Positions 774 through 63,485 of a stretch of DNA of 64,000 nt are shown here, piece after piece. This DNA is from Tribonema minus (taxonomy: Eukaryota > Sar > Xanthophyceae > Tribonematales > Tribonemataceae). The notes beneath the pieces were generated by a model that was given only the letters and a program-made list of their open reading frames with translations, did not search any database and was not told the origin of the DNA. Location of the stretch: contig JAFCMP010000553.1 in the NCBI GenBank assembly GCA_017506865.1, forward strand, positions 1-64,000. The letters run 5' to 3'. Every line of letters begins with the position of its first letter. Position 1 is the stretch's first letter. The position numbers and the translations under genes were made by a program.

Positions 774-3700
774 GCACTTCCTGGATACCTACCCCCAGCT
801 GGTGACGTTCTGCCGCGTCATTGTCAAGCAGGACATCTGGGAGCGCGTGCAGGTGCCCGACTCGCGCGGCGTGGTGACGGAGCACAACCACGCCTTCAAG
901 AAGGTAAAACTTACTTGCTTTACAGGTTGGCAGTGTGGAGGTGCACTGCGTGGTTGCAGTGGTGGGTTACGATGGTAAAAGATACCGTGCACTGCGTGGT
1001 TGCGGCTTTATTAATAAGAGATACTAAGCACGGCGTGGTTGCAGCGGCAGTTCAAGAAAGTACCAGATATTTATTGATGAACGAACAGTTGGGTGCACCG
1101 CCGAGGGCTCAATCAGACCGACCGACATAGGCTTGTCATCACCTGTTCACGATGTGAACGCGCAGCAAATTGTCGTTTGTCGAGATCCTGATCCTCCCGG
1201 CCCCGAGGATTGTGTGCGCGGTAAACACAGGTGGCGCGCCCATGCATACATACGCACCCTCCAAGCGACTCCCATGCGGCTAACCAGTCATTGAAATGTG
1301 TTACTTCAGGTGGGCCCTCACTACATGTATGCGCGAGTGGAGGCCCCTCGCGGTGCCCCCATGCATACATACCCACCCTCCAAGTGACTCATCACTCATT
1401 ATGGTACTCTGTATTGTACTACTACAGGTTGGCCCTCACTACACGTATGCGCGAGTGGAGGCCCCTCGCGGCGCGCCCATGCGCCTGTGGGGCGGCTGCA
1501 AGGGCTACACGCTGCTCAAGACCACGCAGAGCTCGTTCGTCGACTTCCACAAGGACCCTTACACCAGGTGCGTGCTGTGAAATTACCCTGGTGTGCCGAA
1601 AGTTCACGCTGTTGACAGAATTATCCTGGTGTGCGGAGATGGTGTGCCGAGAATTCACGCTGTTAACAGGATTAGTCAATGAGGTTCATGAAAACACGCT
1701 GCGCAAGACCACACAGAGCTCGTTCATCGTCTTTCACAAGGACCCTTACACCACGTGCGTGCTGCGAAGTCACCCTGGTTTGCCGAGAATTCACCCTGTT
1801 CACATGATTGATGGGAGAGATTCATGAATACATGCTGCTCAGGACCACGCAGAGCTCCTTCATCGACGTAACTTCTGAAATTTCACGCGGTTGACATGTA
1901 CGGTGGTTGGGAATGATGAAGGCGTGCTGCTCAAGACCACACAGAGCTCGTTTTGTCCCTTTTTGCTAATAACATTTACACCATGTGAGCGCCATGAATG
2001 CATGCGTATTGCAATTACTTTCAAAAATCAATGAGGCTCCCCTCGACTGCAACGTGTCTGGCTGCAGATGGCACGCCGTGCTCGCTGAGAACATACTGCG
2101 GATGAAAGCTCAAGCGGCTCTGCAAGTGCAGTGCAAAGCGCAAGAACACAAAAATGACGCCTCTGCCCTCATTGCGCCACTCACCTTTCTCACTCCACTT
2201 TCCACCCACTTTCCTTTCATTTTCCGCCCTCTGCGCGCAGCCTCCCGCAGGCCACGGACCGCCTCATGGGCAGCAACTTTGACTCCGAGTGGACGTACAC
2301 GCCCGACACGGTCGCCGCCGCGGTGTCCGGCCGCGTTAACTTTGTCGCGATTCGTGACCAGATCCTGGACACCATGACCAAGACGTTCGCCGGCCCTGCT
2401 GACGTCGGAGTGCCTAGGTGAGCTGCCTGGTTGTAGTTACAGTTTGTCCAAAGAGTTGAAGTTTGTACATGAAGTAAGTCAAACTTTGTTGCCGTGCGCG
2501 ACCAGATCCTGCACACCATGACCAAGACGTTTGCCAGCCCCGCTAACGTCAGAGTGCTCAGGTGAGCCGGTGTAAAAGATGAGGTTAGTGAAAAGTTGAA
2601 GTTTTGCACATTCGTGAAGTAAGTGGACTTGGTCGCCGTGCGCAACCAGATTCTCGACACCATGAACAAGTCGTTTGCAGCCCCCGCTGACGTCGGAGTG
2701 CCTAGGTAAGCTGCCTTGATTATCAGTACGTTATGTGTCAAGCTTAAGTTTGCGCATGAACTCTGTCGCCGTGCGCGACCAGATCCTGGACACTTGACCA
2801 GGACATTCGCCGGCCCTGCTGACATAGGTGTGCCTAGGTAAGCTGCCTTGACGATAAGTGAGTTATGTGAAAAGTTGAAGTTTTGTACATGAAGTATGTG
2901 AACTTCGTCGCCGCGCGCGACCAGATCGTGCACACCATGACCAAGACGATCGCCAGCCCCGCTGACGTCGGAGTGCCTAGGTAAGCGGCCTTGATTATAA
3001 GCGGCAAGTTGATGGTTTGCGCGTGAAGTATGTGAACTTTGTTGCGGTGCGCGTACATGCATTTGAGAGCAAGTTGTGTCCCCCTTCGCCACCCTGGTTG
3101 CAGCGCCTCGGTGCAGGCGGCCCGGATGGGCGGCACCGTGCTGAGCACTGCTACTCAGGTCACTTTTCGTGCATACATGCGCTGTTGAGTCAGCTCTAGT
3201 AAGAGTTGAGTAAGGCTGTTCTGCTTGAAGTTTGTTGGAGTTCTGACCACATCTAGAGCGCGGCTCTAACATATTATCGTTTCCACTCATTTGTTGCATC
3301 TGCCATGTTATATGCACGAGGGCCATGTGGCTTTGTCCCCTCAACTTAAGTTTGAGTTGTCCCCTCAACTTCTCACACTCCAATGCATGAATTTGAAAGG
3401 CCCCCCCCCCCCCCCCCCCCCCGCGTGCAGCGCTTCGGTGCAGGTGACCCTGCACCAGATGGGCGGCACCGTGCTGAGCACTGCCCCTCCACAATTCGCG
3501 CATACATGCACAGTTGACTCAGCTAGTAAGATTTGAGTAAGCGTGTTCTGCTTGAAGCTTCAGTAGTTGGAGTTCTGATCAGGTCTTCGCATAGATGTCA
3601 TCCTTTCCACTCATTCGTTGCATCTTCCATGCTTCACCGCATGAAGTCAAAAGTCATTCCCTTAACATTCTATACTTCTCCTACCCCCTACGCCCCCCCC

Positions 3701-4614
3701 CCCACTTGCAGCGCCTCGGTGCAGGTGACCCTGTACCAGATGGGCGGCGCGGTGCTGAGCATTGCCCCCCAGGTGACGGACATCACCCTGTACATGCCCA
3801 ACGTGCACAACATGCCCTTTGACCTGGCCAAGCTTGGCATGAGCAACACGGACCACACGGGCAACATCGACATTCTGTACCCGATCGACGAGCCGCACGG
3901 CATCATCCAGGTATGCATACATCAACATCGCGATAGCCACATGCCCAATGTCAAGCGCTCCAGCAGCAGATACGATCAATTTACTGTGAAGAATGCATTT
4001 GAAAAGCTTTGCATGAGCAACACGGACCACACGGGCAACATAGAAATACTGTACCCCATCGACGAGCCCCATGGCATGTACTTAAGAGTGCACATGTAAA
4101 GTGGTTACCATTGAAGCCCTTCGCATCATCAACTTTGTTGCGGTTTAGTTTGTACATGTAACGGAATGTGCCCAAGTTCTCTGTGGCATCAGTTAAGAAA
4201 ACAACAGTTTCGGCTGTGATTTGTTTCTGAATGCCGGAAGCAACGGTCGTGACGGTGTAGCCCGCGGTGATGAGCAGGAAGTGAACGTCACAGCACTATA
4301 ACAGCTCATCACTGGTGGCTTTATGTCAAGATGGCAGCCATGGCAGATGAGCACACAAAATTGGACGGAGTGGTAGCTACTGAGCAAGCACTTTTCAGCA
4401 CGATAACTGCAACACCTCAGCCATGCCCCACGCCAACGCTTAACGCTATCTCCCGTCTGAACACCTGACGTCTATTTTCTCTATCGGACAATGTGGCAGA
4501 GCTGTGATCCAGTTGCACTGAGCTGCCAATAAACATGATGCAGATTACCAAACAACATGCGCGCTTGTTTTTGCGATGCAGGCGACCATCGTCAGGCCTG
4601 GCGCCAAACTGTAA
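774..4614 (+). CDS. Uricase (urate oxidase), peroxisomal, 5'-incomplete
   Basis: Uricase oxidises urate with O2 to 5-hydroxyisourate and H2O2 in peroxisomes, the first step of urate breakdown. The exons read are 774-903, 1428-1567, 2241-2417, 3712-3910 and 4582-4614. All four junctions have GT-AG borders and matching phases, giving 225 C-terminal residues of a family of about 300. Family marks seen: HFLDTYPQ, the signature LLKTTQSSF..F.KDPYT, the Arg of ATDRL and the Gln of SVQVTLYQM (equivalent to the urate-binding Arg and Gln of fungal uricase), and MPNVHN with the active-site Asn and His. The protein ends in A-K-L, a peroxisomal type 1 targeting signal carried on a separate 11-codon last exon. 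The N-terminal part with the catalytic Lys-Thr pair is not visible. Introns contain many echoes of the exons. Confidence 0.9.
1229..1366 (+). repeat. Acceptor-side echoes of uricase exon 1428-1567
   Basis: Two partial copies of the exon start lie upstream at a spacing of about 122-125 bp. One begins at about 1306 with CAGGTGGGCCCTCACTAC; the other is only a tail around 1229-1250 (GGCGCGCCCATGC). Both run into the same intron motif (CATACATAC.CACCCTCCAAG.GACTC), so the unit duplicated was exon start plus preceding intron. Confidence 0.8.
1650..1955 (+). repeat. Donor-side echoes of uricase exon 1428-1567
   Basis: Three decaying copies of the exon 3' half (CTCAAGACCACGCAGAGCTC type) lie at about 1694-1762, 1831-1866 and 1926-1952, each shorter or more diverged than the source. 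The first keeps the CACCACGTGCGTG splice-site context. Confidence 0.8.
2480..2982 (+). repeat. Four donor-side echoes of uricase exon 2241-2417
   Basis: Copies of the exon 3' end (GACCAGATCCTG to GGAGTGCCTAG plus GTGAGC/GTAAGC) lie at about 2480-2562, 2630-2708, 2760-2837 and 2905-2981. They are 5-15 percent diverged by eye and separated by repeated TTGAAGTTTGTACATGAAGT spacers. Each retains an apparent 5' splice site. The copies lie within short open stretches and do not extend the uricase frame. Confidence 0.85.
3099..3490 (+). repeat. Acceptor-side echoes of uricase exon 3712-3910
   Basis: Two copies of TGCAGCGC.TCGGTGCAGG and the following 45 bp lie at about 3099-3160 and 3425-3490. The second has a 22-nt C-run (3401-3422) before GCGTGCAG, like the real acceptor with C11 at 3693-3703. 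Confidence 0.85.
4010..4082 (+). repeat. Donor-side echo of uricase exon 3712-3910
   Basis: A 70-bp copy of the coding segment for MSNTDHTGNIDILYPIDEPHG lies 100 bp after the exon's donor and is still in frame with it, ending at a TAA at 4097-4099. It is the best case for a retained alternative end, but the normal end with AKL is supplied by exon 4582-4614. Confidence 0.8.
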
Positions 4615-4855
4615 GCAGGCGCGCGCACACATGCAGGCGAAATGCACATGGCTCAGCAGGGCGGCTGCGCTCGCGCATAGCGCCGCCCCCCTCCCCCCCG
4701 CAGCAGGGCTGCGCGGTTTCCGGTCACACACAACAGCAAAAAGAGCGTAGGAGAAAACCAACATAAAAAGAGAACAGAGTCATTGTTGTGTTGTTCCGAG
4801 TGCATGCGTATCCCGGTGGTTCCCATGGGCTGCCCACTCCTCTCGTGCGCTTTCA

Positions 4856-4907
<52 letters not shown>

Positions 4908-4909
4908 CG

Positions 4910-4940
<31 letters not shown>
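4856..4940. repeat. Poly(G)50-TTCG-poly(C)31 foldback
   Basis: Fifty G (4856-4905), then TTCG (4906-4909), then thirty-one C (4910-4940). One strand can fold as a 31-bp G:C stem capped by a UUCG-type tetraloop. The exact lengths are likely to be uncertain in any assembly. Confidence 0.9.
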
Positions 4941-4942
<2 letters not shown>

Positions 4943-6483
4943 CCGCCGCTGCCGCGTGCGCTGCGGCTGCGTGTATCACATGGTGTGTTTGTTTTAAGCG
5001 CGAGGCTGCTGCTGCGGACAGCGCCGCCGGCGTGCGCTGGCGTGCAGGCCTTGCTACAAGTTGAAGTAGATTTGCAGCGACCTCCATAAAATGGACGTTA
5101 TGGATTGAGCGAAAGTGAGCAGCAGCGCACCAGTGGTGTATTGTTTGCGCGTCGTACTGTGTCTTCTGCTCACAATAGTTGCCGTATGTTTGGTCATGCT
5201 GTTCTGCCCGAAGCGCCATGTAGGCCACCATCAGGCTTTTGTACAGAGCATGGGCAGAGCAAGTTGTGGTGGCTGTGCTACCTTGATGTTCTTATTCACT
5301 GCTGTAAGCTGCAGCTATGCTGTCAACGGCGCTGCACTACTGCTCATTGGCACTTACTTACCACAACTGATGATGCAGAGGGCACGATTGACTGCTAGCT
5401 AGCTGCATGTATGCATATAAAAATATACTACCATGTATGAACAGGCAACATGATATGTCAAAGTGCATCAGTGCAGCACAGCACTTGTTCTACAGCATCG
5501 CGCCTTTGCCTGTATTCATGTGCTGCAGCTGAGGCGGCTCGCCTTGCCTTTGTGGTAAAAGACTCAGAGGGCCAAAATCAGAGGCAGTAATGTTTGCACC
5601 ACGAGTAATCCATTGCGGCACGTATATTGTTGTATGCAGTCTTCTCAAAGCAGGGAAACATATGGCCATCACTACGGCGCGAGCCACATGAAGCATATCT
5701 CAAAGTAAGCGTGGACGATGCAAAATAATTCAACAGCAGCGCTCACCCCAAAGGCCACTCACCGATCCTCACCGAGGCGGGGATGCTACACACACATGTG
5801 CGTAGTTTTTAAGAGCATGTGTCAATGTTGTTGCATTTACACAAGTCCCAAAAGGTCGGCTTGGTTTAAAGGACCACCTGTGAAACACTAAAAACGGAAA
5901 GGCCCGTGCTGCAGGCTAGTATTTTTATTAATTGCGCTTGCCAATGGGGCGCGGATAGCCCCCTCATCTCGGAATGCACTTGATGCAGCAGCACTCCTGC
6001 TCCGCAGAGAGACACAAACTAGACGAATGGTGGGGCAGACACGGCACGCAGCTTGAGCCACGCCTATCGCGGCCGACGCCTCCATCTCTTGAACCACAAC
6101 GCCAAAGAACCCCGGTTATGCCCCTACACAGTTTTCATTTGAGCCAGAGGCGCCCGGTCCTCCGTTCGTTGCCTTGGCACGCCGCTGACGTGCCTGACCA
6201 AATGCCTCTTTCTTGTGAGTTCCACCAAATGATCCAAAGACTGACTGCCTTGATGTCATCGGCACTCCCAGTAACTCCAGGGCCTGCTGAATGCTAGAGG
6301 CATAGCCGCGATGCTTTTTAAATGCTGTGGCTCAAGAGAGGCCTGCTGCTGCTCAGAGCCTCAACCTCACCACATGCGGCTCCGCAGCTCCTGCACGCGT
6401 TCAGACCCAGGGACTCTTCTCCCATTGCTGCCCGCCACCATCGACGCTACCTGCAGGCGCTGGCGCACCCGTCGGTGGGACAC

Positions 6484-6507
6484 GCGCCCTGAGCGAGAAT
6501 TAATAAA
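6484..6507 (+). repeat. Recurring AGCGAGAATTAATAAA element
   Basis: GCGCCCTG followed by AGCGAGAATTAATAAA. The same element occurs on the minus strand at 22368-22392 and, without the GCGCCC part, on the plus strand at 43298-43314. It contains a canonical AATAAA and could be a poly(A) region or the tail of a retroelement. Confidence 0.55.
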
Positions 6508-38300: not shown

Positions 38301-41264
38301 CAATTGCGGCGCACAACGCCTGACCAGAAAGGCTGAGCACTAAATTCAGCATGTGTTTTGTCAAAGTTACCAGAGTGGCGTTAACATGGGGGGGGGGGGC
38401 TGTACAAGGGGGGGGGGGGGGCTTAGCTGCTCCATTTTGCATTGCCAGCTAGCAGAGGGGGCGTTTACAAGGGGGAGGGGGCGTTTACTAGGGCCCGGAG
38501 GGGGTGTTTGCAAGGTGCGGCACACAAAATTTGGGAGCGATGGCGGACACCTCTCATAACGGCAATGGCGGTGCTGGCGAAGCTGCTGCAGCTAAGACAG
38601 CTCCTGTCAATCGAGCATTGTTGCCTTTGCGACCGTCTGTCGGCAAGTAGAGAAGCTGACAACGATATGAGTTCAAGTTCGGCTTGAAGTTCGGCTTAAT
38701 TCGACGTTTTTCCGGCTGTTTCTTGAGGCCCGTGCCGGCCTGCAGCCATTATGGTTGCTGGGAGGGCGTTTGCAAGGGGGGGGTGGGCGTAGTTGCCCAC
38801 TTTTGCCCTGGCAAGCACGCCCATGGGCGTTTACAAGGGGGGCGGGCGTGTACAAGGGGGGGGGCGTTTACTCGGGCATATGCGGTACATCACAAAAGCT
38901 GATAGAAGTTTGGACTGGAAGCAAACACGGAGGAGTGAGGCATGTTGATGGTGCAAGGACGCATTTTAGCGGTTACCTCTTCGCTTTTGCGGCAGCATGA
39001 CCGTACAATACAATGCTGATGAGGATCCTGATCTGCAAGTCAGAAGTGCGAGGGGTAGGTAGCCATGGCAGTCATTCAGGCATGCTCGTTTTCCTCACAA
39101 AGCGTTGATTGCGCTGTGCCGCTCTCAACCGTGTTTGTGGTGATTTGTTCGTGCATTCTTTGAGATAATGCAACTTCAAATTGGCTCTCTCTTGCAGTGT
39201 TTAGGTGGCGGCGTACCTCCGCGCTTGCGCGACGCGTGCGTCAAATGCGCACTCAGTGATGCGCCGCCGTTGACTTCAACTGTTGCTACCGTAGTACTTT
39301 TACTTGAAGTTCTTTGATGTGCCATAACAGTACACTGCTCAACTATGCAAGTTCAAGTTGTGACTCTCTTCGTTTCCCCCTCGCAGCGGGCAGCCATGCC
39401 TGCGGACGTTTGCATCGACGGCGCTCTAGACACTGTGCCGCCGCCGCCGCTGCCGCCGACGCTGGAGCAATACCTAGCGCTGCCTGGCTCGGATGAAGTC
39501 TACACCAAGTTCTACTATGGGGTGCTGTGGGACTCTTTGGGACCCTGGGGTGACCAGTGCGTGGGGCGTGCGCAGAAGAAGCACTACAGGGGCGGCGACG
39601 CGGTGAGTTGGGGGGCGCTCTAACCCTCATTGCGGGCACTGTAACCCTACAGTAGTTGCAGACAGACTAAGCCAACCTCCCAGTGGTGCCGAAGGAAAAT
39701 CTACATTATTCACAGCAAGACATTGGGACAGGATTGGCGACTGAGTGAGTTGGGGGCGCTATAAATCTAGCTGCACGCGCGCAGAAGAAGCGCTACAGGG
39801 GCGGCGATGCGGTGAGTGGGGGGCGTACTTTGTGAGCCTCAATTATTAGACAGCACTTTCTGAATTATTGGCGTTCTCTGAGAAAAAAAAAATACGACCG
39901 TTTCTGTCGGTTGGACAGCTCTAACCCTAGCGGCGGGCACTGTAACCCTAGTTGCACTGAAACCTTAATTGCAGACAGGCTAGGCCGACCCCCCAGGTGG
40001 TCCTGAATGAAATCTCACAGCATCAAAAAATGGTAGAGGGTTTATCACTGAGTAAGTAGGGGGGGGGGCGCTCTAACCCTAGCTGACTGAGTGAGTTGGG
40101 GGCGCTCTAACCCTACCTGCAGGAATCGTGCCTATAATCTCATGCGGTCCGGAATGTAACGCCACAGAAAGCAGAGGCTGTACAACGTTGGCAACTGGGT
40201 GAGTTTCGGGAGGGGGGACTGCGCAAAGTCGTTGTGAGCACTGCCACTCGATTGCCTGCGTGAGGCGCACCGTGCGGCGCGCCTTTTGTGCTTTCTGCAC
40301 AGCGCACCCCCCCTGACAAGCGGAGACAGCTGGAGGGCAGCAAGCACGGCACACGCCACAGCTGTGTGCAACTACTTTCTGCAAGCCACTCGCGTCAGCC
40401 GCCACGTCTGAATCGCAAACCTTTCCGGTCGACACAGTGCTCAAAACAGGACAAGATCGTCACTAGGGCCACGACTCAATTGGAAATCAAACCGCATGCC
40501 TTGGTCCTGAAACAATCGCAATGCATGGCTGTTGGCAGGGAGGGCTCCTTCACTCCTGCTGGAAATTCATACTTCTACATTGAAGTTCTTCAATCCATGT
40601 GCAACAGCCGCCCACTAACGCGCTGGCGCATGTGTGATATAATTTGCATTGTGGCAGGACCATGCAATCACACCAGTAGCTCCTGCTAGCGAGGGCGATG
40701 CACATGACCCCCCCCCCCCACACACGTAGCAGCAATGCACAAGCACCGGGTGCACGAAGTGACAAACGCAGCAGCAACGCAACAAGGCAACCAAAGCACC
40801 TTGCACACAGTCCTGACCAAATGGCCGTCCAGTCAGTATGTTACCAGAAACATGATGTTCACGATTATTTTTTCCAACCCCCCCCCCCCCCCCCCCCCCC
40901 CGCCATCATGCAGGCCTTCAGCTACTTCCAGGCCAACAACGCCGCGGCGACGCTCCTTGAGTTCCAGTTCGTCGGCCTCTACGAGTTCTGGGACGCATCC
41001 CTGCAACTTCTCGACCGCACACTGAGCCTCGGCACAACTTCAAACGACGACGCACCGCCGCCGCCGCAGCGACCATCTGCGGCAGACGCGCTGGCGCGCG
41101 AGCTGCCGGACGCAGCGCTGCGCGGCGAGTACGAGCGGCTGCGCCGCGACACGGGCGTGCGCGCGGCGGTGGAGGCGCACAACCCCAAGGACGTGCTGTT
41201 CTATGCACGCGCCGTCGCCGAGTTTGAGCGCCGCTGCCGCTACATGGGCGTACAGCCCGCCTGA
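23387..41264 (+). CDS. GT34-like glycosyltransferase fused to sulfotransferase-like domain
   Basis: Exons: 23387-23720, 25184-25815, 27227-27420, 29803-29926, 30750-30951, 32296-32459, 33306-33470, 34931-35128, 36422-36501, 37346-37586, 39387-39602, 40914-41264. All eleven junctions have GT-AG borders and matching phases, giving 966 residues. Residues 1-60 are a basic cytoplasmic tail plus a short hydrophobic anchor (GLTGVAAVSLGWLLF), as in type II Golgi enzymes. A Pro/Gly-rich stem (PPGG repeats) follows. About 295-605 resembles the GMA12/MNN10 (GT34) family: HGYDLIID, NKPYLIRKWLP, a DxD motif in WLDLDSM (Asp377/Asp379), and a LLIRNS segment. About 672-966 resembles carbohydrate sulfotransferases: a PAPS-loop-like PPAAGGEVF, WLRDPVDRVL (about 755), FQFVGLYEFWDASL, and a C-terminal helix. 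The loop Lys and the usual Ser after RDP..RVL are absent, so sulfotransfer is doubtful. Exon 1 is the least certain. Likely role: Golgi polysaccharide synthesis. Confidence 0.8.
25309..25545 (+). repeat. Coding CCACCTGGC repeats (PPGG stem)
   Basis: The word CCACCTGGC (Pro-Pro-Gly) recurs at least seven times at irregular 20-40 bp spacing inside exon 25184-25815. It encodes a flexible Pro/Gly/Thr stem between membrane anchor and catalytic domain. Antisense frames here are repeat shadows. Confidence 0.7.
25866..25998 (+). repeat. Donor-side echoes of fusion-gene exon 25184-25815
   Basis: Three copies of the exon end (GCCAACAAGCAGTGCTACGC plus CGAGGTGAGG) lie at about 25866-25894, 25907-25949 and 25968-25998, each with its GTGAG donor. 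Confidence 0.85.
26519..26542 (+). repeat. Interstitial telomere-like repeats
   Basis: GTTAGGGTTAGGGTCAGGGTT, about three and a half TTAGGG units with one change, inside an intron. Similar CCCTAA-type clusters occur at 35898-35912 and 47697-47727. Confidence 0.75.
26785..27171 (+). repeat. Acceptor-side echoes of exon 27227-27420
   Basis: Three copies of the exon start (CACGGCTACGACCTCATCAT) lie at about 26785-26820, 26924-26965 and 27098-27171, growing longer towards the real exon. The last copies 65 bp of exon almost perfectly before breaking off into a CACT repeat. Confidence 0.85.
26888..27215 (+). repeat. (CACT)n microsatellites between echoes
   Basis: CACT/TCAC tetranucleotide runs at about 26888-26920, 27042-27095 and 27172-27213 lie immediately before successive acceptor copies. 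They form the pyrimidine-poor spacer of each echo. Confidence 0.8.
27470..28570 (+). repeat. Eight donor-side echoes of exon 27227-27420
   Basis: Copies of GGGTGCTGTGGCTGGACCTG through GACATGAGCAGGT lie at about 27474, 27595, 27680, 27797, 27955, 28340, 28430 and 28523. The fourth carries about 108 bp of exon; the others carry 45-60 bp. Most keep AGCAGGTGAG or AGCAGGTAGG. The dispersed repeat copy 2 sits between the fifth and sixth. Confidence 0.9.
28028..28145 (+). repeat. Dispersed ~115-bp repeat, copy 2
   Basis: Matches 158-267 and 47458-47572 and begins at the same TGAAAACGAATC. It interrupts the echo array of exon 27227-27420 directly after a GGCATGTA sequence. Confidence 0.8.
29015..29720 (+). 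repeat. Acceptor-side echoes of exon 29803-29926
   Basis: About five copies of TGAGCGTTGT..CAGGCGCAT-GAGAC followed by GACCGCCTCA lie near 29025, 29155, 29308, 29446 and 29630. Each is followed by GCC/GGTCCGTAT-like sequence matching the exon's VHILVP region. The real acceptor is at 29802. Confidence 0.8.
30068..30580 (+). repeat. Donor-side echoes of exon 29803-29926
   Basis: Three copies of GCGCGTATGCGCTACTGATC through GAAGAGAGCAGGGTGCGTG lie at about 30070-30117, 30297-30345 and 30535-30580. Confidence 0.85.
31078..31330 (+). repeat. Donor-side echoes of exon 30750-30951
   Basis: Two copies of GACTGCCTCGACGTGTGCGA through CTGGTGTTTCGGTGAG lie at 31078-31142 and 31268-31330. A short acceptor-side copy (ACGATGACCAGTCGCGGCT) lies at about 30624-30650. 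Confidence 0.85.
32105..32195 (+). repeat. Acceptor-side echo of exon 32296-32459
   Basis: CACGGTCAGATCGTGCGCTC and the next 80 bp match the real exon start at 32296 with about 10-15 percent changes, ending inside the exon. The preceding CACTGGCCGCCACCCTGACAC spacer is duplicated too. Confidence 0.85.
32758..33180 (+). repeat. Acceptor-side echoes of exon 33306-33470
   Basis: Three copies of GCAGGCATTCGCGGTTCACG through GTCTGCCTCA-GGG lie at about 32765-32815, 32940-32993 and 33130-33178. GTATGTATGCCGTGC-like spacers are shared. Confidence 0.85.
33570..34190 (+). repeat. Donor-side echoes of exon 33306-33470
   Basis: Copies of GGCTCGCGGACCCCG..CGCTGACAGCGCTCGCCAATGTGAG lie at about 33577-33622, 33789-33836, 33934-33982 and, weaker, 34142-34190. 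Each is followed by the same TTAGTCACTA-TTGAAC spacer. Confidence 0.85.
34672..34735 (+). repeat. Acceptor-side echo of exon 34931-35128
   Basis: GCTGAGTGCCACTGCGCATGC and CCGCCGTGACAGCGCTCAACC match the sequence around the real acceptor at 34930, with about 25 percent divergence. Confidence 0.65.
34797..34819 (+). repeat. (GA)n microsatellite
   Basis: About ten GA units in an AT-rich intron segment. Confidence 0.8.
35185..35690 (+). repeat. Donor-side echoes of exon 34931-35128
   Basis: Copies of GCGCGTTCGGCGCCGACAA followed by GGACTCAAAGGTA lie at about 35200-35235 and 35315-35350. Weaker ones lie near 35405-35440, 35545-35595 and 35650-35690, where the sequence reads TTTGGCGCCGGCAAAGACGC. 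Confidence 0.8.
37150..37240 (+). repeat. Acceptor-side echo of exon 37346-37586
   Basis: CGGGGTCCTCGGCAACGCAGC through GGGCCAGCACTTCCC matches the real exon segment at 37370-37450 with a handful of changes. Shorter copies of the exon 36422-36501 start (GCCTCAGGTGTGCTTTGC) lie at 36260-36285 and 36340-36355. Confidence 0.85.
37690..38335 (+). repeat. Donor-side echoes of exon 37346-37586
   Basis: Five copies of GTGCTGATGGCGTGGCTACG through GGCTCG-CA-GA-GGGGTGA lie at about 37688-37780, 37855-37912, 37983-38042, 38128-38186 and 38276-38335. The first carries 90 bp of exon. Confidence 0.9.
38386..38880 (+). repeat. G-rich minisatellite, GGGCGTTTACAAGGGGGG type
   Basis: About six to eight copies of a GGGGGCGTTTACAAGG-like unit lie at 38386-38515 and 38760-38875, with runs of 5-14 G. 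Several G-runs per 50 bp make quadruplex formation likely. Confidence 0.75.
39620..40115 (+). repeat. Donor-side echoes of exon 39387-39602
   Basis: GCGCAGAAGAAGCGCTACAG followed by GGGCGGCGATGCGGTGAG lies at about 39779-39815. TGAGTTGGGGGCGCTCTAACCCTA-type intron starts recur at 39743, 40050 and 40085. Confidence 0.8.
40878..40901 (+). repeat. Poly(C)24 before final fusion-gene exon
   Basis: Twenty-four C followed by GCCATCATGCAG and the last exon at 40914; the run forms the polypyrimidine tract. Confidence 0.85.
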
Positions 41265-45400: not shown

Positions 45401-48400
45401 CCACAATCAACCAAATGCAATTGTATCTGATGAGCCTGCAGATTCGCATGCTGCAGCTGGTGTCGTGACTCATTCTACGAGTTGACTGTAAGACTGAGGT
45501 TCGATGGAATGCCTCTCACCAGCGTGTCCGCAAAGCTCACATGTAAAACGCCAGCTGATTCACAAAACTGACTGCGCCATATTTTTGACATGAGCAGCAT
45601 ACGTTATGCCCACCGCCAGGAGTCTCAGCTGCATGGCGTACTTCCAACATTCAACGCATTGAACACGCATACCCCTGGCAGTGACGGCATGCAATACCGA
45701 CGGCAGACTACTGGCTCGTACGCAAACCTCTGGTTCATGTCCCTTCATGCGCACAGCACATACACACCTCGAATACACACATACACCATACATACATACC
45801 TCAACAGGCGGCGTGACAGCCTGAGCCGTGCTGGACCCCCACGGCACCCCCCCAGCCACCGCAGTCCCCGTCCCCCCCGTCCCTCCTCCCGCCATTGTCT
45901 CCTCATCATCAAACGCGTCGTACAAGAACCCCATATCTGTCTGATCATCACCATCGCCAGCGGCAGCAGCGCCGCCACCCTGCGCCACCGGAATCACCGC
46001 CAATGTGCTGTGCGTAGCGCCGCCGCCACTGCCGCCGCCGGCGGCGGCGCCGCCGCCGTCGCCGCCGCCGCCGCCGCTGCTGCCAACGCTGCTGCTGCCG
46101 CGGTAAGGAGGCACCGCCATTACGGCCGCTGCTGCCGCCGCCGCTGCTGCTACTGGGGGCACCCCACGAGCACTGCCTGCCGCAGCGCTGCGTTGCTGCT
46201 GCTGTGCGTACGGGTTACCGGCCGCTGCTGCCGCTGCCGCTGCCACTCCTCTCGCAGGTGCTGCTGCCGCGGCAGCAGGGGCGGCGCGCTGCGTCTGCGC
46301 TGCGGCCGGCAGCGGCTGCGGCGGCGGCGGCGGCGCGGTCAACTGCTGCGACTGCGCAGCGGGCTGCTGCTGTTGCTGGAGCGTGGCTAGGGGGGGGCGT
46401 GGGGGTCCCCTGCCATCCCCTCCACCCTCGCCAGTCTGCAAAGTGAAATCAGATATTGCCGTTGTGAGTCGAGGCCCGAGTGGGCAGATAGGTTAAGGGT
46501 AGAAAAGGGTGTAACAGTAGCGCTGGCTGCAAAGAAGACATGCGTGGACCAATGCAGGAAGTTCCTGAATCTGCTGTGACACCAAGCACTGCAAGACGCC
46601 CATTGATGCATGGCGCTCACAGTGGAACAGGTTCCGACACTAGCCTTGGCACTTAACCTAGCTTACACTCCACCTAGCTCCTAAGTCACGATAACCAAAT
46701 GCCACTTCTGAAAACCCAACAAGCTGCACCCATCTGAACACACAGGATGTTAAGTATGTGGAGCGCTGCAACATGGCATGCCTCGGTCTGAAGCAGGTAC
46801 AGTACAACTTTGTGTCACCAAGATTATCTGTAACCTGAGCATGTGATGATGACAGCTCTTCAATGACAACATTCAATACTTCACGTCACAGTCCGCAATG
46901 CAAGTATGCGCAGTGGACGGCCGCTACGTATACGCAGTTATGTTGGTGAAAAGCACTGTACCAAGCCTTAACTTTTTCACTTCTAATGAGAAGTTCAGAG
47001 TATGAGAATAATTCAGTAGCAGGTAGATGTGCTTACAATTGCTCGTTGCAATCCTCCAATATTTCATTGAAATGCTCTCTCTCTGATCTCAACACACGCT
47101 ACTGACTTGAGCTCCACCAACATTCAGTTGTGATATACAGCCACAACATTGTCTGAAACCGCATCATTCACCTCTGTTGGAGGCTCTGGGGGCTTCGGCA
47201 TCCCGCCCCCCAGCAGCCGCGTATTTTCAGCGCTGAGCATCAGCATGCCCTGCCGCACATACTGTGAGCAGGGGACAGAAATGGATGAAATCATGAATGC
47301 ATGATGAAGTCCGACAGGACCAGATCATTTCCGCGCTGAGCATCAGCATGCCCTGCCGCTGGTACTGCGTGGAGCGATGAACGGATTCATGAATTCATCG
47401 TAAATGTAGCCAGAACCAGATGCTTCCATGCTGACCAGCAGCATGGCCTTCCCCACATGAAAACGAATCAGAAGATCGTAGAGCTCTAGGTGACAAGGTA
47501 TGGTCAGCCGCAAGTGCCTTCCACCAATTACCGTGGTCGCCGCTGCTGCAGAAATTGGCTACAAGTCAAACCACATACTGTGAGCAAAGTACATGAGCGA
47601 TATTCATGAGTTATACCAAAGCAAGTGCGACACCACAACTGGTAAGCAGCAGCTAGCACGAGCGAATCAAGTGGTGGGGTGGAGAAGTTCACTAAACCTA
47701 ACCCTACCCCTAACCCTAACCCTAAGGTTCCGTGCTTTCATGCAGGCGCAAACAAATTATGGCATGGCCTCAAGAGCCTGACTCTTTAAAACCAACACTA
47801 TGTTATGTACTGTAGAACCCGTATCTCTGGATGTTTTTCTCACACTTTAAAACATGCAGCTCTGAACGAACAATTGCAATCGCTAGCATGCGGGGGTGCG
47901 AAACACCCCCTGAACCGACCTTCAAATTCGTCATCTACCCGTGTTCACAATTATCTGCTGCCAGTGACAACCTGCTGCCTGACTTCTTGAAGCTGTCAGC
48001 GCTGATGCACGCATGTTCCTTATGCATGGTTCACCCACAACCTCAGATGGCCGGAGCTCCAAATGTAAAGTTGTGTCATCAGAGAAACCAGTGTCAAGTG
48101 CACAAACGCACTGGCACAAACAAAACGGGTAGATGTCAGTCGCTACAAATGCCCCCCTGAGCAGCAAGATTTCATCTGACCTGAATGCATCGCTCAGGGT
48201 AAGCTTGGAGTAGCCAAGTGGGTAGGTAACAGCAACACTTCATCGACGCAAATGGACAGAAACGCATTACTCACTGGGTTGGCCACCAGCAGCTTCACCC
48301 CCACCGCCCAGCTACATTATTTCACACACATCGACACACAAACGCGTCTCACTGGGTTGGCCACAAGCAGCTTCATCCCCACTGCCCAGCAACATAACAT

Positions 48401-50022
48401 AATTGACACAAAACTGACACAAACGCATCACTCACTGGGTTGGCCACAAGCAGCTTTACTCCCACCGATAGCTGCTCCATCTTCAAGTCCGGCAGCTTCC
48501 CATATTCAAACGCCACCACCTCCTGCCTCCCATCGCTGAGCCGCAACTTCAACATGCGCTTTCCGGATTCCGCGTCGCGCTGCTCAGCTGACTGCGCGGA
48601 TAGAAATAGCATCGCTGCCGTGCGTCATTACACCCGATTGAAGTAAATTGATATTGTTGAAAGAATTTTTTTTGCAAGAGGACACCATTGAACACATGTC
48701 CAGATGTACACGACGCGTAGAATCAGATCAAACTTGAACATTCTGCCTATTGTGCAGATGTACCTGGAATTCATGGAGCGGCACCATGTCATCAACGCCG
48801 ACAATTATTCTGTTGGAGCATGATGATAGAGATTGAAGCCATTGATTGAAGTAATTGCCATTTCAAGTTGGTGGTCGAAGCGGTCAGCTGGAATGCCAGG
48901 GACAGATGGCAACATTCCAGCCACACATGCATTGAGCATTAAAGTTCTATTGTTTGACCTTCTCTGAACGTGAACCTCTGCTTGTGTACAGCAACATTGC
49001 GCTAGTAAACAACAGCTCTCACTACGTTTCGCAACCGACTTCACTTTGCAGTTTTGTAATGAGGTGACGCGCCAAGCTGATGTCGACACATGGCTGCACC
49101 TGCAGCACGAAGCGGCCGCTCAGCACCCGGCAACACAGCTCTCACCGCGTCGCCACCAAACTTCACACTCAACTACAACAAGACGTGATGTTGACCCACA
49201 CCTGCACCCGCACCGCGCAAGGCCCGCTCAGCGCCTGCACCACAGCTCTCACCGAATTCAGCTTCAGCTTTAACAAGAGGCGCCTCACCGCGCCGACGTT
49301 GACCCACGCCCGCACCTGCACCATGCAACGGCCGCTCAGCGCCTGCAACAGCTCTCACCACATTGCCACCAACTTCACATCTGATTTCAAGAAGAGGTGA
49401 CTCGCCGCAACAAGAGGCGACTCACCGCGCTGATGTTGACCCACGCCTGCACCTGCAGCACGAAGCGCCCGCTCAGCGCCTGCCTGTGCAGCGCGCACAC
49501 GCGCGGCGGCAGGCACCCCGCGCCCGCCTCCCCCAGGTCCGCCGCCACGAATTGCGCCCACGCCGCAGCGGCGCACGCCGCTACGGGCCTGTTTGCCAGG
49601 CGCAGCGCGTCGAGGCACTGGCTCAGCCAGTCTGCGCGCGGCGCGGCGCCGAGATCCGCCAGCGCGGCTGCCACCTGTATTGTGTGGCGGAGCGAGTGCG
49701 CTTTTACTGGCTTTGCGGGGCACGTGTTGGGGAGGTTTGGTGTGTTTCGGAGTTGTGTACAGGTGGGAACTTTGTGTGCCGTGCAAGGGCTTTGATGTGG
49801 TTGCGAGAGCGACGGGAGCCGGTGCCTCTGCGTGGTGCTGTTGTTGTCATGCACTGCATTGCTGACGTGACTGACTGTCAGACTGCACCCACAGTGCAGT
49901 AGCCAACGCGCTGCATCAGGCGGATTTGCCTGGTGCTCTGCGGCCAGAATCTGGCGGAGCCGCTGCGCGTGAGGTGCGCCACCGCGCTGCGACAGCGCTG
50001 CTGCCGCCTCAAGCGTCAGCAT
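42481..50022 (-). CDS. RMI1: RMI1, RecQ-mediated genome instability protein 1
   Basis: RMI1 is the OB-fold scaffold that joins RecQ helicase and topoisomerase III to dissolve double Holliday junctions in the nucleus. Exons in transcript order: 49674-49426, 48591-48436, 47261-47172, 46435-45800, 45204-45067, 44974-44799, 44036-43871, 43158-43039, 42567-42481. All borders are GT-AG and phases match, giving about 605 residues; human RMI1 has about 625. A first exon from an ATG at 50022 is uncertain because its donor phase did not fit. N-terminal part: WLSQCL, QFVAADL.E.G.GCLPP, LSGRFVLQVQ, then the OB1 strands RMLKLRLSDGRQEVVAFEY and GVKLLVANP..VRQGMLMLSAENTRLLGG. The middle is low-complexity Gln/Ala/Gly, including a 107-bp intron in a repeat. 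The C-terminal OB2 is RFHLTVMLEEKG, AALSNDVCAQLFGMNAADFKQ (split by one residue change from the family pattern) and MDRAQALLKHVEAQLWQFSGFI. Confidence 0.82.
43298..43314 (+). repeat. AGCGAGAATTAATAAA element, copy
   Basis: The third clear copy of the element at 6491-6507, here in an RMI1 intron on the opposite strand to the gene. Confidence 0.5.
43749..43771. repeat. Poly(G)23 run in RMI1 intron
   Basis: Twenty-three G on the plus strand, a C-run on the coding strand of RMI1, between exons 44036-43871 and 43158-43039. Confidence 0.8.
47322..47450 (-). repeat. Echoes of RMI1 exon 47261-47172
   Basis: On the minus strand, CGGCAGGGCATGCTGATGCT and CAGCGCGGAAA recur at about 47322-47370, with a weaker copy (CTGCTGGTCAGCATGGAAGC) at about 47425-47450. 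They lie upstream of the real acceptor. Confidence 0.75.
47458..47572 (+). repeat. Dispersed ~115-bp repeat, copy 3
   Basis: Matches 158-267 and 28028-28145, beginning at TGAAAACGAATC. It lies in the RMI1 intron upstream of exon 47261-47172. Confidence 0.8.
47693..47727 (+). repeat. Interstitial CCCTAA telomere-like repeats
   Basis: AACCTAACCCTACCCCTAACC followed by CTAACCCTAAGG: about five CCCTAA units with small changes, inside an RMI1 intron. Confidence 0.8.
48260..48375 (-). repeat. Donor-side echoes of RMI1 exon 48591-48436
   Basis: Two copies of the exon end (minus strand AAGCTGCTTGTGGCCAACCC followed by AGTGAG) lie at about 48338-48375 and 48260-48300, each with a GTGAG donor. Confidence 0.85.
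49065..49345 (-). repeat. Donor-side echoes of RMI1 exon 49674-49426
   Basis: Three copies of the exon end (CAGGCGCTGAGCGGGC..GTGCAGGTGTGGGTCAACAT on the minus strand) lie at about 49285-49345, 49187-49243 and 49065-49130. Confidence 0.85.
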
Positions 50023-53150: not shown

Positions 53151-54249
53151 AGTGATTGACGAATGTGTTGGTGAGGCTGCTGCACCAAGGGGGTCTAGAC
53201 GTTGGCTGCACCGTTTTTGACGAGCTCCGTTGCCGGCTCACCCACTGAATGACACGCCTTCAGACTGCGCAAAGAAGATGTTTTGAGGTCGCCTTTACTT
53301 GAAGCAGCGCTGCCATCGATCCTGGTGTGCAAGCCTGTGCTGCTGCGTTCTGGGTATTACAGCAATAGACCAAGTGTCCTTGAACTTGAGAATGTCACTG
53401 TACGTACAGAGTTCCATTGGGTCCACTGAAATGCGGAAAGCGCGCACGACAGGCCAAACGCTACCGTCGCTGCACAAGTGTGTGGCTCCATCAACAACCA
53501 CAGTTGCTCATGTGAGAGCAGGCTGAGGGCACCGTAGCGAAATGCAATGCGTATGTCACCTCATGGTCGCACATATGTACATGAGAAAGCGTGTCACGTG
53601 GTTGTTGCAGCCTACCTAGCTGGACATCTACTCACATGCAGAGCACTCCACTACTGCCGCCATCGGCTTGCCTCAAGACTCACCGATCTGCACATATGCA
53701 TACAGTGCGTGCAAACATTTTTTCGCTGCATATGATGCATGACTTCACAAACGCACTTGCTTATGTGAGTGCAAGCTGAGGGCACTTGACATAGAAGAAT
53801 GCAATGTCACACAAGCAGCGCAGCACATGGCCGTCGCAGTACATCAAGCATCCATCCACAGCAAATAATTCCATTTCTGCCGCCGTCAGCTAGCCATCTA
53901 CAGCAGCATCAGAACTACCAGCAACAGAGCAGCTTCAGCAGCAGCACCAGCACAAGCAGCACACAGACCGTGACACACAAGTCATTCTCGGCAGCGCAAT
54001 CGCCTGTGTGCATTCATTCGCAAGCAAGCGTGCATGCCTAGACGGTCGATGACATGCCGAGCGCGCACAAATACGTAAGCGCCAGCAGTGCACCACACGT
54101 GCAACACTGCCTATTCATGCAATTGCTACGCACCAGAGCCCTAGCTCTCCTGGCCGGAACTACCAATGCCATGGACACTAACTGACAAGCCTTGGTTGCT
54201 GAAGCTCTGGACAATGTTTGAGAGCCGTACAATGGCAATCGCTGGCAGG

Positions 54250-54411
54250 TGTCCGCTCCGGCTAGGGCAGAGCGGGTTCAGGGCACCCATTGGCACGTGC
54301 CCAGTCTGCCACAAGCTGCTTACCTGCCTCCCAGCACTTGATATGGTGGCACTGTTCCAGGGACATTCATTGGCGCGCGCCCACTGCAGCACCGCAAGAT
54401 GTCCGCCCTAG
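54250..54411 (-). pseudogene. Truncated 3' end of an ankyrin-family gene
   Basis: On the minus strand it reads VLQWARANECPWNSATISSA, then a small deletion after the SSA (a CTC-type loss compared with unit 6), then QVSSLWQTGHVPMGAL in a shifted frame. It matches the last 50 codons of unit 6 and stands alone with its 3' flank. Confidence 0.8.
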
Positions 54412-54780
54412 CTAGTCTACAGCAGCATCAGAACTACCAGCAACAGAGCAGCTGCAGCAGCAGCACCAGCAGAAGCAGCGCACAGACCGTGACACACATG
54501 TCATTCTCGGAAGCGCAATCGCCTGTGTGCATTCATTCGCAAGCAAGCATGCATGCCTAGACGGTCGATGACATGGCGAGCGCGCACAAATGCGTAAGCG
54601 CCAGCAGTGCACCACACGTGCAACACCGCCTATTCATGCAATTGCTACGCATCAGAGCCCTAGCTCTCCTGGCCGGAACTACCAATGCCATGGACACTAA
54701 CTGACAAGCCTTGGTTGCTGAAGCTCTGGACAATGTTTGAGAGCCGTACAATGGCAATCGCTGGCAGGTGTCCGCTCCGG

Positions 54781-55974
54781 CTAGGGCAGAGCGGGTTCAG
54801 GGCACCCATTGGCACGTGCCCAGTCTGCCACAAGCTGCTTACCTGCCTCCTCAGCACTTGATATGGTGGCACTGTTCCAGGGACATCCATTGGCGCGCGC
54901 CCACTGCAGCACCGCAAGATGTCCGCCCTTGGCAGCATAGCTGCACGTGTCCTCGTCCCATGGGCAGCCGTTGGCATGCAGCCACTGCAGCACCTCCAGG
55001 TGCCCTTCCGCCGCAGCCTTGGTGCACGCCATCGCGTCCCATGGGGCGCCGTTCGCATGCGCCCACTGCAGCACCTCCAGCTTCCCGCCCTTGGCAGCAT
55101 AGCTGCACGTGTCCTCATCCCATGGGCAGCCGTTGGCGCGCGCCCACTGCAGCGCTTCGAGGCGCCCATAATGTGCAGCAAATGTGCACGTCCACTTGTC
55201 CCATGGGCAGCCGCTGGCACGCGCCCACTGCAGGACCTGAAGGCGCCCATACGCCGCTGCGGTGGTGGTTATCCGAGAACTCCACTCACACCCGTTGGCA
55301 TGCGCCCACTGCAGCACCTGAAGGTGCCCTTTTCCCGCAGCAGACCAGCTTGTGTCCCCATCCCATGGGCACCCGTTTGCGCGAGCCCACTGTAGCACAT
55401 GGAGGTGTCCGCCGTGTGCCGCAAATGAGCATGTGCCCACACTCCATGGGCACCCATTGGCGTGCGCCCACCGCAGTATCGCAAGATGCCCGCCTAGCGC
55501 GGCCGCCATGGGTAGGGTTAAGTCCCAGGCGCAGCCGTCGAGACGCAGCCACTGCAGCACTTCAAGCTGACCGCCGCTTGCAGCAGCTCGGCACAACATT
55601 TCTCCCTCATCGAGCGTGAGGCAGCGCTGCCGCAGCCACTGCACCAGCTGCAGATGTCCCCTCTCGGCAGCGATTTCGGTGTGTTCTGGACGCAACACTG
55701 TCGCGTGGGTGCGGCGGAGTAGCAGCAATGCTGGCATGTCGCCCCTGCGGATGCATGAGGTCTGCGCCACAGAGGCATCCATGCCGTTCTGTACCGCCCA
55801 CGTAATCAAGCCGGTGCTGCCGACAGCATCCGCCGCCACGGTCTGGTGCTTCCGTGGAGCCGGACCATGCTCCAGCACATGGTGGAATTCGCGGCAGGTG
55901 CTCCTGAGCATGAGCGTCGGAGGGAGGAAAGCTAGAGCATCGACAGCGACGCTCAGGATCGGGTTGTCTGCCAT
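54781..55974 (-). CDS. F-box-like/ankyrin-like repeat protein, unit 6
   Basis: An intact intronless frame of 397 residues, MADNPILSVAVDALAFLPPT then LMLRSTCREFHHVL, about eleven 27-residue repeats, ending GCPEPALP like unit 5. One repeat is atypical (ANGCEWSSRITTTAAAYGRL), and AHANGAPWDAMACTKAAAEG loses the usual Cys. Likely the sister copy of unit 5. Function unknown beyond the inferred F-box/repeat receptor role. Confidence 0.9.
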   Translation of the reverse strand: MADNPILSVAVDALAFLPPTLMLRSTCREFHHVLEHGPAPRKHQTVAADAVGSTGLITWAVQNGMDASVAQTSCIRRGDMPALLLLRRTHATVLRPEHTEIAAERGHLQLVQWLRQRCLTLDEGEMLCRAAASGGQLEVLQWLRLDGCAWDLTLPMAAALGGHLAILRWAHANGCPWSVGTCSFAAHGGHLHVLQWARANGCPWDGDTSWSAAGKGHLQVLQWAHANGCEWSSRITTTAAAYGRLQVLQWARASGCPWDKWTCTFAAHYGRLEALQWARANGCPWDEDTCSYAAKGGKLEVLQWAHANGAPWDAMACTKAAAEGHLEVLQWLHANGCPWDEDTCSYAAKGGHLAVLQWARANGCPWNSATISSAEEAGKQLVADWARANGCPEPALP

Positions 55975-57073: not shown

Positions 57074-57336
57074 CAATCTGGTTGATTCTGCCAGTAGTCA
57101 TACGCTTGTCTCAAAGATTATGCCATGCATGTCTAAGTATAAGCGCCTTATACTGTGAAACTGCGAATGGCTCATTATATCAGTAATAGTTTATTTGATG
57201 GTCCCTTACTACCTGGATACCCGTAGTAATTCTAGAGCTAATACATGCACTACGGTCCCAACTGCACCCTCGGGTGCGGACGGGATGCCTTTATTAGATT
57301 GACACCAATGCGGCGCAAGCCGGTGTTGTGGTGACT
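57074..57336 (+). pseudogene. 18S (SSU) rRNA 5' fragment, degraded
   Basis: It begins CTGGTTGATTCTGCCAGTAG and continues in register through ATGCATGTCTAAGTATAAGC, GAAACTGCGAATGGCTCATT, TACCCGTAGTAATTCTAGAG and TTTATTAGATTGACACCAAT, ending TTGTGGTGACT. These are the first ~265 nt of eukaryotic SSU rRNA. Differences at otherwise constant positions (GATTCTGCC for GATCCTGCC, AGATTATGCC for AGATTAAGCC) and the abrupt end mark it as a non-functional fragment. Confidence 0.92.
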
Positions 57337-57359
57337 AAATAAATTTTAAATAAATTTGT

Positions 57360-57360
57360 C

Positions 57361-57392
<32 letters not shown>

Positions 57393-59025: not shown

Positions 59026-59057
<32 letters not shown>

Positions 59058-62000: not shown

Positions 62001-63485
62001 CCCGCCATCGGTGATGACAAACTTTGCCCAGCCGAGGTCGTAGCGTCTGGTGAGCACACTGCCAGACGTGGTGCCGCCCAGCACCAGACCCTCGCACTTG
62101 ATGTCCCAGCTGAGCAGTGATACAGCAGCATTCAGAAACTAATTGAGTACACGTGTAATAGCAACATGATGCTTCGAAGCAGTGAATCGCAGCGGCACAG
62201 TGATGCAGCAGCATTCAGAAACGGACTGAGTGTGATAGTGGCACAGTAACTTGAAGCAGTGAATACTAGCTGCACAGTGCAACAGCAGCATTCAGAAGCT
62301 GAGTCAGTATGATAGCAACATGATACTTGAAGCAGTACTTGATGACAACAACAGCAATCATGAAAAGGAGTAGATGTGCAAACATTGGGGTCAATATCAG
62401 CCCCAAGGCAGGTGAAGCGAGGCTGCAACAGCACGCAGGGGAAATAGGAAGCAGCAGTAGGTGTGTGCTTGGCACAACGGGCAAGCGCCGCCCTGCCTGT
62501 GGTGAACTTGTGCTCGTGCAGTGCCGAGCTGACATGGTGGAGATGGCAATGCCCAGCAACAATCCCATACAACTCATGATTCAGGCTGCATGAGAGGTAA
62601 TGGCGAGCAGCACAAGTCCTGTGACCTGTAGCAGAGAAAGCTGGTACCTGAAGTAGCCTTTGGACGACCCTGTAAGAGCCGCGATGTGTATGGCCAGCGC
62701 GCCCGCCGAGAGCATCACCAGCAGCGGCAGAAAGTACGAGCCCACCTGTCGAAGCAATACACGACAGTGCTCATGATCTGGTACATAACAATGCTATGGG
62801 GGTCATTGAAGCAAAGTTGTCACGTGCAAGTCCAGGCCCTTGATTGAATGAGAGGTGCAGAAGCACTCGTGCAAGTGCTCTAAGTATTGCTACACACACT
62901 GTGGCACAACTGAATGTACGCAACCCTCACCACCAGCCGAACGATGCGCTAATCTGTGAAAGATACAGTCACTGATGCATTGAGCTTTGTGCTTGGTAGT
63001 AATGCACTTGAGTGCTACGGAGCATCAGCGCACTTCTTGTTCCAAACCACTTTTGACAGCAGACATAATCGAAGATGTGCATGATACTTTCATGCTATGC
63101 ACCTGGCCACTGGGACCAACAGGCAGGCCTGCCATTAAAATTTTGAGTGCATGCTGCTGATTGTTGCTGACAACAACTCAGGTCAGCTTTGAAGCATCAA
63201 GCTTCGCAGCAAGTCCACCTAATGGTGAGGCAAATAAACAAATCAGCTTACCCGCATTTCAAACCCCAGGTAGGCAGCAACCCACGGTGGTGGCGGCTTG
63301 TTGTTGCGATGTCCATGGGAAACCGTAGTCTGCCTCTTTTTCGTAGTCGTAGCCGAGATCGGTGGCCTCACTTTAGGGATCGGTGGCACCGGCGGTTCAC
63401 TCCTGCCCATGGGTATTCTGGGTGCTGCCACAGGCGCAGGCTCCCTCTCCTCCGCTTCGGTTCCGCTCATGGTGTCCTTCAACAT
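58538..63485 (-). CDS. Four-helix membrane protein with Gly-rich tail, unknown
   Basis: Exons in transcript order: 63485-63252, 62745-62648, 62109-61971, 61291-61176, 60193-60010, 59221-58538. All borders are GT-AG with consistent phases, giving 484 residues. Residues 1-78 are a Pro/basic cytosolic head. Helix 1 is at about 79-102 (VGSYFLPLLVMLSAGALAIH), then a loop of about 60 residues (CEGLVLGGTTSGSVLTRRYD). Helix 2 is at about 163-192, helix 3 at about 210-232 (VVALLVANVVLVMVVFGV), helix 4 at about 258-279. The C-tail has a Gln run, then long Gly/Ser/Asp-rich sequence. The plan (four helices, larger first loop, long tail) resembles tetraspan/claudin-like proteins, but I recognise no family motif. 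Plus-strand Ala/Pro frames over the last exon are antisense shadows. Confidence 0.75.
60310..60340 (-). repeat. Acceptor-side echo of exon 60193-60010
   Basis: On the minus strand, TTCAGGGCGCCTGCGCCGCG matches the real acceptor and exon start CTCAGGGCGCCTGCATGGCG at 60193. It lies about 145 bp upstream. Confidence 0.7.
62117..62345 (-). repeat. Intron tandem repeat, ~70-100 bp unit
   Basis: Three copies of a unit containing CAGCAGCATTCAGAAAC and GATAG..CA.ACTTGAAGCAGTG in the intron between exons 62745-62648 and 62109-61971. Confidence 0.75.

Follow-up and report, generated by a model that had tools for sequence, protein, structure and literature searches.

We analyzed a 64,000-base stretch of the genome of the alga Tribonema minus (the window: bases 1-64000 of the 588,653-base contig JAFCMP010000553.1, called C550 here, in an assembly of 158 Mb and 554 contigs). 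Its introns contain arrays of diverged, partial copies of the adjacent exon ends, each copy carrying the sequence of a splice junction. We confirmed that these copies are real and are bound to exon edges, and the pattern is not limited to the window. Their anatomy is the one by which a recent study of the chicken defines exon stuttering (Hron et al. 2026, PMC12954441). Very probably, the arrays arise by recurrent tandem duplication across splice junctions, and splicing from the outermost sites would make this tolerable.

Exon models for two window genes, a uricase gene (4 exons) and a gene at 25.2-39.6 kb (10 exons), were written by eye and checked by joining the exons. Each set of joined exons gives a single stop-free open frame, with GT...AG at 12/12 introns, and Pfam identified the products as Uricase (E=2.1e-30) and Glyco_transf_34 (PF05637, E=3.3e-9). 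We then used a screen modelled on the chicken study, in which each exon is compared with its adjacent intron. The screen covered 45 introns (90 junction sides), namely the 12 window introns, which were chosen because of the finding, and 33 unselected introns from CCT/Cpn60 and kinesin genes elsewhere in the genome. For the outside introns, profile matches combined with splice sites gave the junctions. Of 36 intron models, 3 had poor splice scores and were removed before the copy count; five exon pairs could not be modelled, and pairs whose profile gaps were larger were not used. The threshold of 41 bits was the top score of any control (shuffled introns, 32.8 bits; minus strand, 26.5; introns of other genes, 41.0). 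The wider genome is represented by gene families and by sampled loci.

Above the level of every control, the screen found 71 copies, which fall in 23/45 introns and on 31/90 junction sides. Each of the 12 modelled window introns is affected, with 44 copies between them. An earlier note made from the sequence alone counted more than 45 copies in the window, a figure reached when the copies at 608-690 and 4004-4077 and those on the minus strand at 47.2-49.5 kb are added. The side rule it gave also stands: copies downstream of an exon hold its 3' end with the GT, copies upstream hold the AG with the exon's 5' end, and both lie in direct orientation by their source. The distance to the exon border is at most 1 nt in 59/71 copies and at most 20 nt in 67/71, with a maximum of 49 nt. 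The copied exon part is 27-135 bp long with a median of 49, which corrects the 30-110 bp first given, and copies diverge from their source by a median of 10%. None of the 71 reaches the far exon edge (outside the window, the far edge of the profile match standing for the exon).

Searches with bare profile-matched exon cores, made before exact modelling, gave the same picture. Upstream copies start at the core start and downstream copies finish near the core end, with few exceptions. The kinesin sample, the DNA of 6 gene regions holding 28 of 132 matches, gave a copy for 13/28 cores and a reverse-strand match for 0/28. Among chaperonin cores (45 of 56 matches used, four of these copies themselves), 3/45 had one reverse-strand match each. 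In a local self-alignment of the window, genes with introns are dense in direct repeats, whereas the flanking DNA of single-exon ankyrin genes has few, the ankyrin coding repeats aside.

Copies also cluster by their own exon, at a median relative distance of 0.23 of the intron, and only 9/71 lie past mid-intron. This position bears on an account of intron creation, either by an exonic AGGT segment duplicating in tandem (the Rogers model) or by a potato-type duplication over a single junction. Such processes also involve tandem duplication and splice sites, and the duplication in the potato RdRp case crosses an intron-exon boundary (PMC4974935). The AGGT model, however, requires copies at the opposite intron end, and we regard intron creation as very improbable here.

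Outside the window, 11/33 CCT and kinesin introns carry copies; the other 22/33 have none at the 41-bit threshold, and several genes are free of them. Presence clusters by gene (permutation p ~0.0009 over 12 genes). On contig C279, for example, one CCT gene has copies in 2/3 modelled introns and another in 0/6, the latter still showing two weak short matches and one array that ends at an acceptor. Paralogous LHC gene blocks with exons ~90% alike also differ: contig C1 has arrays at exon edges, and C79 has no local repeat at the cut-off. Therefore the coding sequence itself does not demand arrays, and the array state changes on the time scale of gene duplication. One antenna protein (of 92 LHC-family matches) best matches solved structures with ACPI, CAC and FCP-like names, a multi-domain set with weak single-domain scores aside; we take these names to denote the chlorophyll a/c type. 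Intron GC (guanine plus cytosine) ranges from 0.45 to 0.67, and arrays also occur at 0.45-0.55. By eye there is no relation between intron GC and array presence, and GC content as a cause was set aside.

We also read ten sampled stretches (44 kb) blind, at round coordinates on contigs previously met or picked by number. They hold 22 local arrays, and four of the ten loci are without any. Arrays overlap a composition-predicted exon in 20/22 cases, a figure that may run slightly high, as the predictor missed two exons and called several copies exons in a window test. One locus, L005 (C1:1000001-1010000), accounts for 16 of the 22 arrays. Taking strong exon calls only, 15/16 of its arrays cross exactly one predicted exon edge; over 397 circular shifts this number averaged 7.2 and never exceeded 12. 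No array spans a whole strong exon (chance mean 2.7). L005 would make a good test gene, with its own array at 15/20 strong predicted exon edges.

Two trivial sources of repeated sequence were weighed against these data. An assembly or sequencing artefact is hardly credible. The assembly does contain near-identical contig pairs, C70:83801-86800/C489:4001-7000 (99.86%) and C296:12801-16300/C490:833001-836500 (100%), so it holds duplicate contigs or very recent duplications. Exon-edge copies, however, differ from their source by that 10% median, occur on many contigs and track exon edges. The two contig pairs have no exon-edge arrays, with one 32-base repeat pair in C70/C489, and two genome queries for a second haplotype of arrays (L005 and CCT) found none. 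A mobile or introner-like element carrying the units would explain repeated units in many introns. Its units should be dispersed, yet a 121-base array query matches its own array only, and the sole match of a 1100-base query from a CCT array is that array itself. The L005 query matches its own neighborhood plus 18 short places, all within the first 132 query bases, which hold a predicted exon. We give this explanation next to no weight.

The geometry of the arrays argues for tandem duplication across splice junctions, as first proposed. The median spacing from one copy to the next is 146 bp (10th-90th percentile, 86-226), and the median offset of the nearest copy is 172 bp. The homologous span reaches 0.9 or more of the nearest-copy offset in 18/31 arrays, although the extension used was lenient and may overstate it. 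Junction arrays account for 60% of the bases of the 12 window introns and for 24% of those of the 33 outside introns, which supports the suggestion that they add to intron length.

Arrays that span a junction outnumber the rest. In 38.8 kb of intron sequence we found 36 junction-spanning arrays and 8 others, and 25/36 junction arrays were still detected after the exons were cut off. All 8 non-junction arrays are single pairs, and 21/36 junction arrays have more than one pair (Fisher p=0.004). Non-junction intron arrays have roughly the same low density as those seen in the noncoding DNA of the ankyrin cluster (3 in 17.5 kb). As a null, we placed 146-bp duplications at random. With introns of 664 bp, the median length of introns free of copies, the expected junction share is then 0.30; it rises to 0.45 at 400 bp and 0.63 at 250 bp. 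For all 45 introns, the observed 25/33 gives p=6.5e-8, 3.2e-4 and 0.095, respectively.

The copies supply many decoy splice sites, as the earlier note had pointed out, and most are intact: GT is kept in 39/45 and AG in 22/26 (61/71 overall). Because the dinucleotides mostly survive, the decoys are not purged. The copies otherwise decay like noncoding DNA. The frame breaks reported before are present, with 14/71 copies frameshifted and 4 carrying in-frame stops. None of 16 indels has a length that is a multiple of three (1/13 in a second alignment, of 61 copies).

We propose that short tandem duplications, mostly at ~80-230 bp spacing, would repeatedly cross one splice junction. Each would leave the full exon in place, and the intron would gain a unit of exon edge plus intron start (or end), splice site included. 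The outermost splice sites, attached to complete exons, would be used, as we infer from the open reading frames; the new copy would be spliced out and then decay. The copying process may be slippage or unequal exchange between tandem units.

Several observations weigh against this reading. Some genes lack the pattern, which the model leaves unexplained. The homologous span is less than 0.6 of the offset in 6/31 arrays. Simple outward growth is not clean: similarity is highest for the nearest copy in just 7/17 multi-copy arrays (pairs 54 vs 33, 4 ties), and divergence against distance from the source, a check suggested in the earlier note, makes a weak clock. Window genes, which were picked because they show the pattern, contribute part of the junction excess (19 to 1). 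The ratio for the outside introns is 17 to 7, falling to 10 to 7 once exons are removed. Outside the window the contrast in copy number is marginal (8/17 vs 0/7 arrays with more than one pair, p=0.054), and 10 junction arrays out of 17 reject the null for 664-bp introns (p=0.012) but not for 400-bp (p=0.18) or 250-bp introns (p=0.74). Mismatch rates by codon position are 0.167 at third positions vs 0.069 and 0.047, a 2.88-fold excess over positions 1+2 (bootstrap by array, 2.18-3.80), where a neutral copy of a constrained exon would be expected to show ~2. With shared changes counted once the ratio is ~2.2 (partial sum). Finally, indels per base are 10x fewer in exon parts than in intron parts of copies, though the threshold favors clean exon parts.

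The last two points would suit copies that are functional, as partial exons spliced in at times or as regulatory decoys under coding constraint, and so would the retained splice dinucleotides. On the other side, no copy has both exon edges, the indels ignore the reading frame, and the paralogous LHC block does without copies. Source exons themselves change at third positions: where the source third position is A or T, 61/138 sites are mismatched, which points to change in the source exons. We do not take the third-position excess and the indel deficit as proof of function, although the excess above ~2 is not fully explained, and we consider functional copies improbable.

A separate question is whether exon ends act as lasting templates for recurrent duplication. 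Purifying selection could hold an exon end constant and so keep it a matching template for more rounds, and purely intronic duplicates would drift on both sides and stop growing. This step is partly supported. We hold its chances to be about even, because the counts outside the window fit plain duplication in once-short introns. Its rival is that duplications land anywhere and exonic ones are purged; in once-short introns most survivors would then cross a junction, and exon ends would not be special. We judge this quite possible, though short of an even chance. It requires no extra mechanism, purely intronic arrays do exist, and ancestral introns of ~250 bp would yield a share that fits the outside counts (10/17, p=0.74; 17/24, p=0.30). 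If the 664-bp median of copy-free introns is taken instead, the low p values above count against random placement both for all introns and for those outside, and non-junction arrays never have more than one pair. With or without the template step, the copies are junction-spanning duplications. A bolder generalization would make exon edges the engines of intron growth, with a permanent template, self-renewing junction arrays, intronic repeats that die, independent occurrence in birds and alga, and a spliceosome that dependably selects the outermost site among several near-identical ones. As a whole we find this doubtful; if true, a general way in which introns grow may have been overlooked.

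The window features are collected in Table 1. The minus-strand gene with arrays was called RMI1 in the earlier note, a name that is not confirmed: Pfam found no family in the single stretch searched. An array at 62104-62336 repeats an acceptor region but by eye includes only few exon bases.

Table 1. Exons and exon-edge copies in the window (positions are those of the window)
Feature	Position	Strand	Basis and remarks
Uricase exons	774-903, 1428-1567, 2241-2417, 3712-3910	+	open frame of joined exons; Pfam Uricase
Uricase exon	774-903	+	open frame; acceptor and 5' end copied upstream at 608-690 (self-alignment, by eye)
Acceptor-side copy, 5' end of uricase exon 1428-1567	1310-1364	+	93% identity, border distance 0
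Three donor-side copies, 3' end of uricase exon 1428-1567	1694-1952	+	90-96% identity; two begin 23 and 30 nt from border
Uricase exon, source of following donor-side array	2241-2417	+	open frame; Pfam uricase
Donor-side array, four copies of exon end and GT of uricase exon 2241-2417	2482-2980	+	spacing 126-145 bp; 82-86% identity; Tandem Repeats Finder
Acceptor-side array, two copies of AG and 5' end of uricase exon 3712-3910	3104-3487	+	screen
Copy of 3' end of uricase exon 3712-3910, donor site decayed	4004-4077	+	91% identity (self-alignment, by eye)
10-exon gene, glycosyltransferase 34-type domain, outer ends not defined	25166-39602	+	single open frame; PF05637
Exons of the 10-exon gene	25166-25815, 27227-27420, 29803-29926, 30750-30951, 32296-32459, 33306-33470, 34931-35128, 36422-36501, 37346-37586, 39387-39602	+	
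Donor-side copies, intron 1	25906-25991	+	screen
Acceptor-side copies before exon 27227	26928-27172	+	86 and 96% identity
Donor-side array, eight copies after exon 27227-27420	27478-28569	+	86-97% identity
Acceptor-side copy before exon 29803	29460-29495	+	screen; self-alignment shows additional diverged repeats in 29133-29857
Donor-side array, three copies after exon 29803-29926	30065-30574	+	screen
Copy of part of exon 30750-30951, 49 nt from its border	30620-30652	+	screen
Donor-side array, two copies after exon 30750-30951	31078-31326	+	92 and 98% identity
Acceptor-side copy before exon 32296	32128-32190	+	screen
Acceptor-side array, three copies before exon 33306	32774-33182	+	screen
Donor-side array, three copies after exon 33306-33470	33573-33977	+	screen
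Donor-side array, two copies after exon 34931-35128	35200-35346	+	97 and 100% identity
Copy of part of exon 37346 5' region, 29 nt from border	37159-37234	+	screen
Donor-side array, five copies after exon 37346-37586	37693-38319	+	screen
Acceptor-side copies before an exon of the minus-strand gene	47225-47452	-	self-alignment, by eye
Donor-side array, second exon of the minus-strand gene	48230-48467	-	self-alignment, by eye
Donor-side array, minus-strand gene	49034-49483	-	self-alignment, by eye
Array of acceptor region with only few exon bases	62104-62336	-	self-alignment, by eye

Other elements were seen in the window. Six single-exon ankyrin-type genes with 81-base repeat units lie at 8.1-9.4, 11.4-12.6, 15.4-16.5 and 20.6-21.8 kb on the plus strand and at 51.8-53.0 and 54.8-56.0 kb on the minus strand; Pfam found ankyrin in all four genes tested from this cluster. 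A 0.5-kb duplication, 97% identical, is at 53880-54929. A dispersed repeat of nearly identical wording at ~148-270, 28030-28140 and 47450-47560, one occurrence inside an intron array, is by eye probably a mobile element fragment. An Rfam scan of the window found only an 18S ribosomal RNA gene fragment, the 5' end, at 57075-57391. Here ~300 model positions match before unrelated sequence follows, and it is apparently a stray fragment of ribosomal DNA, presumably stramenopile-like.

The earlier note knew of no described class for this pattern, but exon stuttering had already been described. A literature search on the anatomy returned, among the matches listed and with limited coverage of subscription papers, PMC12954441 only, as did a search on exon and sequence stuttering terms. 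According to that paper, on chicken dot chromosomes a lateral exon part recurs along the adjacent intron together with its splice site, in 236 introns of 115 genes, with sources at the exon border and lengths that differ between individuals; gerbil genes are mentioned too (data not shown). The two systems share direct, imperfect, local tandem repetition of a lateral part of a coding exon, with donor or acceptor, in the adjacent intron. The source exon is intact in both (here, open frames over 4 and 10 exons). Sources lie within 1 base of the border in >90% of chicken cases vs 59/71 in the alga, and the copied exon part has a median of 36 bp vs 49 bp. Local origin is common to both as well, two of three array queries in the alga matching their own place only and the third also giving short exon-part matches.

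Other aspects differ. The concentration on small, GC-rich dot chromosomes, an association reported there and not a definition, is not seen in the alga, with contigs up to 2.45 Mb and intron GC of 45-67%. Copies occur in 11/33 outside introns compared with 3.4% of dot-chromosome introns, for different genes, screens and thresholds. Junction arrays outnumber intronic ones in the alga, whereas the chicken authors expect many more introns with purely intronic repeats. Length variation between individuals is a main feature in the chicken; the alga is known here from one genome, in which the paralogous blocks on C1 and C79 differ.

The same anatomy in an alga shows that birds and dot chromosomes are not needed for exon stuttering, and the alga may offer a microbial system for testing its cause. 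It is a concrete route for intron growth without mobile elements, and it raises the question of how splicing chooses the right site with up to eight near-identical copies after an exon. Tandem exon duplication with mutually exclusive splicing likewise places exon sequence in tandem within a gene, but it copies whole exons with both splice sites, and the algal copies are one-edged. Introner elements are dispersed mobile families whose repeated units enlarge the intron complement; the algal units are also repeated but were locus-specific in the queries made. Intron gain of the AGGT or potato type (for the potato RdRp case, PMC4974935) shares tandem duplication that crosses or supplies splice sites, but one duplication makes a new intron there and repeated duplications lengthen introns here. 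New in the alga, relative to exon stuttering in the chicken, are the distant lineage, ordinary genes on large contigs, the higher frequency and the dominance of junction arrays.

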